A DNA stretch of 60,857 nt, from assembly GCF_003703975.1 (NCBI RefSeq), contig NZ_QTJY01000028.1:1-60857 (forward strand). Reading direction: 5' to 3'. Within the stretch, counting starts at the first letter, position 1. The number at the start of each line of letters is the position of its first letter. A program made the translations under genes and the position numbers. Positions 55,354 through 56,348 of this stretch are shown here, one piece after another. Source of the DNA: Larkinella soli. GTDB lineage: Bacteria > Bacteroidota > Bacteroidia > Cytophagales > Spirosomataceae. Under the pieces are notes generated by a model. It searched no databases. It was not told the origin of the DNA and was given only the letters and a program-made list of their open reading frames with translations.

Positions 55354-55487
55354 AAGATTTTTTTCAAAGCCACGCAACCGAAAGGAAGCGATCCTCGTAT
55401 ATGTGCAGGAGAAGCCTTTGGCCCGACCTATTCAACGAAGCGCCAGGGGAACCGCTGAGTTCGGGTTCGTGTCGAAGGTTCTGATTG

Positions 55488-55536
55488 AACACGCCCGGTC
55501 ATCCCTGTTACTACAGGGAAGGCCGGGTGTTTTTTC
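55488..55536 (+). terminator. Terminator after the PQQ dehydrogenase
   Basis: Stem AACACgCCCGG / CCGGGtGTT, interrupted by an inner CCCTGT/ACAGGG stem, followed by a T6 run about 135 bases after the stop codon. It lies inside the gene-free stretch 55354-55799. Confidence 0.87.
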
Positions 55537-55550
55537 TTTGCCCGACACCC

Positions 55551-55579
55551 CTGGCCGGACCGGCGCACCGGCCGGGGGT
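55551..55579 (-). repeat. Type A palindromic repeat (copy 2)
   Basis: On the minus strand it reads CCCCCGGCCGGTGCGCCGG followed by TCCGG, nearly identical to 4984-5009 and 56291-56319. The core is itself dyad symmetric and can fold as a hairpin. Confidence 0.8.
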
Positions 55580-55644
55580 GTGCGGATTGGCACTCTCTTC
55601 GCCCCTCTCTTGCTACGTTCCACTCTGCCCCCTACCTTTGAACC

Positions 55645-55760
55645 GCGAAGTTTAATTATTTTAATTTACAGTGGGATTCTTGGCTTAAACCAAAGGACGG
55701 CCGGCAAAAGGTGCAAGTCCTTAGTCCAAGAACGCCCATGTGGGAATAATTGAACTTCGC
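55645..55760 (+). ncRNA. Structured leader element, riboswitch-like or small inverted-repeat element
   Basis: A 16-bp outer helix, 55645-55660 with 55745-55760, is complementary except for one position that would be a G-U pair in RNA. Inside lies a second helix (55668-55683 with 55726-55740: ACA.TGGG.TTCTTGG / CCAAGAA..CCCATGT). A 6-bp stem AAGGAC/GTCCTT competes with a small hairpin AAGG-TGCAAGT-CCTT (55708-55722). That hairpin matches the GGTGnAAnTCC core (P4-L4) of cobalamin riboswitches, though the rest of that fold is not convincing; a similar motif occurs in group II intron domain I. The 3' arm (55750-55760) is also exactly complementary to 55802-55812, just over the start codon of the next gene, giving two exclusive pairings. 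Alternative: a 116-bp MITE-like element. Confidence 0.45.
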
Positions 55761-55799
55761 AGTGACCGGCCTATCTTTTCATCATCACCTCCTTTGGTT

Positions 55800-56348
55800 A
55801 TGCGAAGTTCAAACAACTCTACCCACCAATCCCGCCCGGATTATCCCAAAGCCTACTTTCGGCCCTGCGGCATACCCCGACGCTTGTTTTTACAACTAAT
55901 TGAGGCCGAGCCCCTGCTCTCCGCCCAACCCGACGGCCAGGGCGTCGTGCAGGGCTTCCTCCGCACCGTCCTGCGTCGCTACCTGCTTGAACGCCGAACC
56001 TACTACGCCCGTCTGCACGAAAACCGCACCGGCCGGCCCCTCCAGCCGCCCCAGCACCATCCCCTGCTTCATGCCGCCCTGGGTGCCTACTGGCGGGTCT
56101 TCTGCCGTACGCTCGCCAAACAGGATTTATCGCTGGAAAACCAGCTTCAGCAGCAGGAGCTATCGTGGCTCAACCACCAGATCGTGCCCGAACTGGAGCG
56201 GCAATTGACGGAGGTAAGCACGGCCCGCGACCGGCTGTTGAGCGAGAACGAGCGTCTGAACCGGGCGCTGGCGATGCTGATGAGCCGGTGCCCCCCCCCA
56301 GCCGGTGCGCCGGTCCGACAGGACCAATCAGAAAAAGTAGGTAATTGA
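55800..56348 (+). CDS. Unknown 182-residue protein with C-terminal coiled coil
   Basis: The protein starts at ATG 55800 (MRSSNNSTHQSRPDYPKAYF); an upstream start at 55740 would lie inside the structured element. Residues about 20-110 are mixed (FLQLIEAEPLLSAQPDGQG, RRYLLERRTYYARLHENR). Residues 115-162 form a strong heptad-type coiled coil with Gln/Glu-Leu spacing (LENQLQQQELSWLNHQIV, RDRLLSENERLNRALAML). The last 19 residues (PPPAGAPVRQDQSEKVGN) are encoded by a type A repeat inserted into the gene end, so the natural C-terminus may be shorter. The stop overlaps the convergent TonB receptor gene by 21 bases. No family is recognised; codon use fits a real gene. Confidence 0.65.
   Translation: MRSSNNSTHQSRPDYPKAYFRPCGIPRRLFLQLIEAEPLLSAQPDGQGVVQGFLRTVLRRYLLERRTYYARLHENRTGRPLQPPQHHPLLHAALGAYWRVFCRTLAKQDLSLENQLQQQELSWLNHQIVPELERQLTEVSTARDRLLSENERLNRALAMLMSRCPPPAGAPVRQDQSEKVGN
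56291..56319 (+). repeat. Type A palindromic repeat (copy 3) inside a coding end
   Basis: CCCCCCCCCA then GCCGGTGCGCCGGTCCGACA matches the other two copies. It supplies codons near the 3' end of the unknown gene at 55800. Confidence 0.8.

Follow-up and report, generated by a model that had tools for sequence, protein, structure and literature searches.

A conserved RNA family absent from Rfam and its putative role as a self-pairing translational leader in Larkinella soli and other Bacteroidota

Introduction

The closest described counterparts of the RNA reported here are phage self-antisense RNAs. In the CI RNA of P4, one segment has a complement on either side of it in the same transcript (seqA upstream, seqC downstream), and the RNA acts through transcription termination, as stated in the part of the source available to us (PMC4825925). 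C4 RNA (RF01695) is trimmed by RNase P from a larger transcript, covers ribosome-binding sites and is described as having three stem-loops, the available part of the source mentioning no pseudoknot; its relatives occur in multiple copies and are chromosomal in Acinetobacter baumannii (PMC5320573). The present study concerns a stretch of 60,857 nt from Larkinella soli (the window), in which a preliminary description had pointed to an RNA with mutually exclusive pairings before an ORF, possibly of a new cis-regulatory class. We found that this RNA belongs to a real and conserved family that is absent from Rfam, no copy scoring above threshold for any Rfam family; nor was a description of it recognised in the literature among the matches listed. 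Its logic resembles that of the phage self-antisense RNAs, and its fold, as far as Rfam models can tell, matches neither C4 nor any other model.

The leader has a 5' arm (A), a switching strand (A') and a third arm at the start codon (A''). As in P4 CI, one segment is complementary to sites upstream and downstream in its own leader, which was found in the copies with A''; unlike P4 CI, compared by description only, the leader contains a pseudoknot and a T-loop hairpin and has the start codon as its target. As in C4, an antisense segment is complementary to the gene start region of the same transcript (38 of 54 copies), a complementarity that seven copies in a recurrent prophage position (the phage slot) do not have. 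No C4 match was found at any copy, three sub-threshold ones lying elsewhere in the genome (best E 0.415).

SAM-II and preQ1-II are translational regulators built on a pseudoknot near the start codon, as the phage-slot copies also have; the RNA differs from them in that no Rfam match was obtained here and that the copies outside the phage slot carry the additional three-arm code. The B12 riboswitch core has the consensus GGUGnAAnUCC, and the T-loop hairpin has a similar core. That likeness had been noted before together with the lack of a recognisable B12 fold, which agrees with our search of 55400-56100 against Rfam: it gave seven unrelated sub-threshold matches up to E 10, with no cobalamin family and no group II intron model among them. 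A genome-wide search for HEARO, the IscB omega RNA (RF02033), gave no match at E<=10.

Results and Discussion

Structure of the leader in the window

The features of the leader are collected in Table 1. The upstream pairing of 55645-55660 with 55745-55760 comprises 15 Watson-Crick pairs and one G-U, exactly as first described, and the last 11 bases of the latter arm are indeed the exact reverse complement of 55802-55812 at the start codon (AUG, 55800-55802). A further pair, A55761-U55801, extends the start-codon helix beyond the length first given, to 12 Watson-Crick pairs (U55801-A55812 with U55750-A55761). A and A'' repeat each other in direct orientation at a spacing of about 155 bases, and the intervening A' covaries with both. 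The segments AACCAAAGGA and UCCUUUGGUU are complementary by eye in the window copy and in the copies C17a and C1a, which may be a further copy-specific pairing.

Table 1. Positions of the leader elements and the ORF behind them in the window
Feature	Position	Strand	Evidence or remark
TACCTTTG, Bacteroidota sigma-A -7 box	55633..55640	+	TAnnTTTG upstream of arm A
Arm A, predicted transcript start, pairs with A' (P1)	55645..55662	+	pairing, whole-arm shuffles
Inner helix P2, 5' strand; sequence varies among copies	55669..55683	+	predicted fold
AACCAAAGGA, complementary to UCCUUUGGUU (55790-55799, directly before AUG)	55688..55697	+	by eye
Pseudoknot strand PK5', GGCCGG	55699..55704	+	covariation with 55766-55771
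T-loop-type hairpin, AAGG-UGCAAGU-CCUU	55708..55722	+	covariation
P2, 3' strand	55726..55742	+	predicted fold
Arm A', switching strand, partner A or A''	55745..55761	+	pairing, run counts, whole-arm shuffles
GUGA linker	55762..55765	+	GUGA or GCGA in 27/28 aligned relatives
Pseudoknot strand PK3', CCGGCC	55766..55771	+	covariation
U-rich stretch 3' of pseudoknot	55772..55779	+	usual with A'', not constant in phage-slot copies
Downstream ORF, 182 aa, no known family	55800..56348	+	directly behind leader; two partial paralogues (C28, C17a), cut by contig ends
Arm A'', U and G of start codon and next codons, perfect complement of A'	55801..55812	+	

The segment 55640-55815 has a folding energy of -54.1 kcal/mol, whereas dinucleotide shuffles of it give -39.3 +/- 3.7 kcal/mol (z -4.05; none of 200 as low), and the A'/A'' run of the window was equalled by none of 100 shuffles and none of 53 partner swaps with other copies. 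The two states of the window copy lie 1.7 kcal/mol apart, and those of 12 of 19 copies within 3 kcal/mol, with the pseudoknot left out of the energies in both cases; the predicted second state is without A'/A'' in 5 of the 19, and the energy balance goes both ways. In 31 copies, the start-codon hairpin averaged -7.8 kcal/mol, and -6.1 kcal/mol once partners were swapped, a weak argument in its favour.

Conservation and covariation

In an alignment of 28 sequences, 99.4% of cells in the pseudoknot helix were paired and 5 of its 6 pairs showed double changes, so the crossing GGCCGG/CCGGCC pairing proposed at the outset is borne out. The T-loop hairpin likewise covaries as a helix (96.4% paired, double changes at 3 of 4 pairs), and conserved core nucleotides surround the T-loop, the GUGA linker (one base short in L107) and the pseudoknot. 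The covariation score was 0.639, against 0.178 +/- 0.023 when shuffled and at most 0.167 when slid, in an alignment that was fitted to the model structure and is therefore biased towards it; with a MAFFT alignment of ten, the score was 0.171 (0.069 after shuffling), but sliding by +1 still left 0.153, and this alignment is weak alone.

The arms were compared by whole-arm shuffling, from which L129, L130 and L098-L100 were left out together with L113, L114_2530 and L081 (decayed at one end). The A:A' helix (P1) was 97.4% paired with 24 distinct arm pairs, shuffles reaching at most 78.6% (0 of 1000 as good), and A'':A' was 95.8% paired with 18 distinct pairs, exceeding all 1000 shuffles (at most 81.2%); in both, the A and A'' sites were taken where nine bases best matched each A' and were shuffled without re-picking, and arm A of C28 was set by hand. 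The effect of picking alone is gauged by the seven phage-slot copies, which were 69.6% paired. A:A' and A'':A' change together between copies.

Three-arm code and promoter

Among 54 copies, which are not independent (eight from genus g8, perhaps Dyadobacter, have one common A'), the A'/A'' Watson-Crick run was 8-19 bases in 38, corresponding to 38 of 45 when the seven phage-slot and two decayed copies are set aside, and it begins at the U or G of an AUG in 35 of these 38. Runs below 8 were seen in the seven phage-slot copies, the decayed L081 and L114_2530, and seven ordinary copies (C17a, C1a, L073, L089, L105, L114_2950 and L120), several of which extend A'/A'' through G-U pairs; in L124, A' pairs elsewhere. 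Opposite a G of A', arm A has U and A'' has C in 20 of 29 distinct copies, the reverse in 3, which is what displacement of the 5' arm by the start-codon pairing would call for.

An exact TAnnTTTG box stands upstream of A in 45 of the 54 copies, at 4 nt in 43 and at 5 nt in 2 (shuffle rate 0.46%); the other nine have no exact box. In the window, TTG at 55610-55612 presumably represents the -33 element. The TAnnTTTG box of Flavobacterium psychrophilum lies at -12 to -5 in the part of the source available (PMC9723704), which places the predicted +1 on 55645, the start of arm A.

Copies in the Larkinella soli genome

By combining BLAST, pattern, protein and covariance-model searches, we identified nine copies across the genome (6.92 Mb), namely the window copy, C17a, C17b, C1a, C28, C7, C4a, C5 and C4b. 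All nine share the order of A, a GGCCGG-type strand, T-loop hairpin, A', GUGA or GCGA, a CCGGCC-type strand and, 17-31 bases behind it, an ATG with A''. C1a has one mismatch in the CCGGCC-type strand, and in the divergent C4b both pseudoknot strands are altered together (GGCAGG/CCUGCC). An ORF starts at the third arm behind every one of them, those of C17a and C28 running off their contigs. The copies are dispersed, as those of a MITE would be, but 9 of 9 lead into an ORF at A'', and we rejected a MITE with copies unlinked to genes. A BLAST match at C1:787787 was noise, and no such leader was seen by eye at L049, a protein-search match.

The ORFs belong to groups without relation to one another: the 182-aa type (window, C28, C17a), a 96-154-aa type (C4a, C5, C17b, C4b, and C1a by a weak match) and the 77-aa ORF of C7. 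Two of the three 182-aa ORF copies run off contig ends (L009 1-211, L011 1691-1978), suggesting that the assembly broke at a longer repeat. In the C7 region (L012 1987-2882), the ORF behind the leader is followed by two ORFs that by eye resemble an Xre-type antitoxin and a RES-domain toxin.

The A'/A'' run within these copies averaged 9.6 for own against 4.9 for foreign partners. A' fits its own A'' best in seven of nine copies, C17a and C1a fitting others better; a run of 11 also joins the window A' to the A'' of C17a, and cross-talk between copies in the genome is possible.

Distribution in Bacteroidota

A tight pattern matched two of 222 genomes of the family, L. soli (8 copies) and G115, and eight other genomes of the genus had no copy by pattern or by covariance model R1 (built from ten copies). 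R1 matched 34 of the 222 at E<=0.1 and 26 at E<=0.001, some of the matches being weak. Of these, L098-L100 were dropped for lack of GUGA, L129 and L130 for low score (E 0.003-0.004) and L115 for lying inside a coding gene. Model R2 (28 sequences) matched 37 of 390 genomes of the order at E<=0.01, with E below 1e-5 in 32; some matches are weak, and the 37 include G301, G321, G338, G346 and G456 (E >0.001), counted by score alone. At the phylum level R2 found 5 of 395 genomes at E<=0.001, L. soli included, one of them by a short and doubtful match of 40 bases (G599), counted by score alone. Many genomes have several copies in the R1 and R2 scans, with up to six per genome in g8 (R2). L162, from another family, has by eye A, A' and A'' at the start codon and the pseudoknot variant GUCUAGG/CCUAGAC. 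Pattern scans of IMG/VR gave 1, 8, 3 and 2 contigs, the last two already among the eight; the eight were confirmed by R2, and the set of three is known from the pattern only.

Phage-linked layout

Most copies have A'' at the start codon, and a recurrent prophage-slot layout is without it. We counted 18 slot loci, some near-identical. By eye, most have upstream a gene of about 331-337 aa and/or one of about 181-230 aa with NPGG or NLGG; on the 3' side, the RNA and a small ORF are followed by a coiled-coil-like gene and, in several loci, by ParB-like and glycosyltransferase-like genes further on. The assignments to phrog_620 and phrog_842 were tested at one slot locus, L102. The neighbours of L106 differ from those of the other loci. 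In the slot, the distance from the pseudoknot to the start codon behind it is about 5-25 bases, but L106 has none within 55 bases. The seven phage-slot copies have an A'/A'' run of just 4-6, and no convincing second A' site besides A was found within 5.5-6 kb in L101-L104 and L106-L108. The exact run of the pseudoknot was reached by no shuffle in 12 of the 18 loci and by some in six, among which the imperfect pseudoknots of L144, L145 and L147 are prominent. Because the phage-slot copies have no constant U-run between the RNA and the ORF, the two probably share a transcript in these loci. Genome G049 has a pair of closely similar prophage-like regions with the same RNA (L103, L104), and elements matching them occur in two IMG/VR contigs (L148, L152).

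The Fibrisoma limi copy lies in an IMG/VR contig beside phage-like genes, yet has A'' (11-base run); at L035 244-1272 (reverse strand), its leader-ORF unit has an endonuclease gene (phrog_4645, E 1.2e-49) behind it.

Proposed mode of action and alternatives

We consider it probable, at roughly 60%, that the RNA is a cis-regulatory 5' leader that uses self-pairing to control translation of the small ORF that follows. Transcription would begin at arm A. In the emerging RNA, A would pair with A' (P1 on P2), the T-loop hairpin would fold and the strand beside A' would close the pseudoknot. Once A'' had been made, A' would leave its helix with A, which is often weakened by a G-U pair, mismatch or bulge, for A''; this pairing would cover the start codon and stop initiation, so that translation could begin only as long as A keeps hold of A'. 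Since the A:A' helix has its chance before A'' is synthesised, we infer that the leader is likely open first and shut later; the outcome would be an initial burst followed by shut-off, or else a bound factor would set the state. In the prophage-slot relatives, the pseudoknot shortly before the start codon might itself block. Initiation in Bacteroidota is described, in the available part of the source, as tuned by structure around the start codon without a Shine-Dalgarno sequence (PMC6847099). The fixed distance between A and the promoter box, together with the directed U/C difference, suggests a strand-displacement timer; if so, co-transcriptional control of translation without Shine-Dalgarno becomes testable, and the three-arm code gives direct, copy-specific predictions that can be tested by base changes. 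The original suggestion of a new cis-regulatory class with exclusive pairings gains support from the covariation present in homologues, the promoter box, the ORF and the lack of an Rfam family. Several points run counter to the cis leader: the start-codon arm is not universal, being missing in the phage slot and poor in several other copies, and the ORFs behind the copies fall into unrelated groups, which is odd for a dedicated feedback loop. The dependence among the copies, the predicted second states without A'/A'' and the weakly backed start-codon hairpin also count against it.

The family adds to the Bacteroidota a structured RNA with strong covariation, whose chromosomal copies are linked to phages. 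A wider reading, which we hold tentatively and at less than even odds, is that of a phage-born self-antisense leader class in Bacteroidota with a private guide arm, a weakened 5' decoy acting as timer, and chromosomal takeover; each chromosomal copy, with its own code and small protein, would then possibly serve as immunity between related elements.

It is rather unlikely that the RNA acts in trans, in the style of P4 CI or of P1/P7 C4, with the leader cut or ended at the U-run and the freed A' pairing with A and A'' of new transcripts, thereby silencing the locus and incoming copies of the same code (immunity). The A - A' - A'' topology equals seqA - CI - seqC of P4 in the available part of the account (PMC4825925), and the distance from PK5' to PK3' in the window copy, 73 nt, is close to the size of C4 RNAs, given as about 77 nt and RNase P-cut in the portion of PMC5320573 available. 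The multiple copies in many genomes, the codes that are mostly private in L. soli, and the A'' of the phage-associated F. limi copy also fit. The copies match no C4 family, however, the prophage-slot layout without A'' is recurrent, and the U-run is not constant; a free small RNA and its processing would have to be assumed.

A ligand-sensing riboswitch, with the pseudoknot and T-loop hairpin as pocket and A/A'/A'' as expression platform, appears improbable. The conserved core nucleotides at the T-loop, GUGA and pseudoknot would suit a pocket, and in the phage-slot copies the platform could be a hairpin competing for PK5': a PK5' run of at least 7 with an upstream strand was found in 9 of the 18 slot loci, three of them close relatives of each other, and not in the other nine (at most 9 of 300 shuffles reach it). 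Against this, the ORFs that were tested have no family name and fall into unrelated groups, and several copies per genome before different unnamed ORFs do not make the usual riboswitch pattern as it is generally understood.

That promoter, RNA and ORF move as one unit of a mobile element, with A and A'' as flanking repeats and A' as a guide or end structure used in mobility, is highly improbable: the dispersed loci (two at contig ends, none in the eight other genomes of the genus), the direct repetition of A and A'' and the endonuclease gene of F. limi agree with it, but the difference between A and A'' is directed (U versus C), the distance from box to A is fixed, the ORF starts inside A'', and no transposase gene was noticed in passing beside the copies.

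Downstream proteins

Ten ORFs behind copies had no Pfam family above the cut-off and no PHROG at E 0.01, and neither NCBIfam (five ORFs) nor PADLOC (three ORFs) gave a match; searches of phage records with one 77-aa ORF and of plasmid records with one 95-aa ORF returned nothing. An S24/LexA C-terminal domain reading of the C4a, C5, C17b and C4b ORFs was unsupported by Pfam (three of four), NCBIfam (two of four) and PDB, and the structure model made for this question was of poor quality, at a mean pLDDT of 45.6. Purifying selection acts on the 95-aa ORF family, whose median dN/dS is 0.22 (27 ORFs, 340 pairs), or 0.17 over 281 pairs minus the N-terminal part. Its structure model has three helices at a mean pLDDT of 73, low for the first 27 residues, which are partly encoded by A'', and had no significant fold match. 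The window ORF and that of C28 differ by 15 synonymous and 14 non-synonymous codons over 96, too few for a firm statement.

An adjacent intergenic element

Upstream of the leader, we observed a conserved intergenic element at 55354-55545 of the window, behind a PQQ-type dehydrogenase gene and ending in a terminator-like hairpin and a T-run. No Rfam family scored above threshold for it. Among the other eight genomes of the genus, three align with it at a mean column identity of 73%, parts of it recur elsewhere in three genomes, and it is possibly another non-coding RNA.
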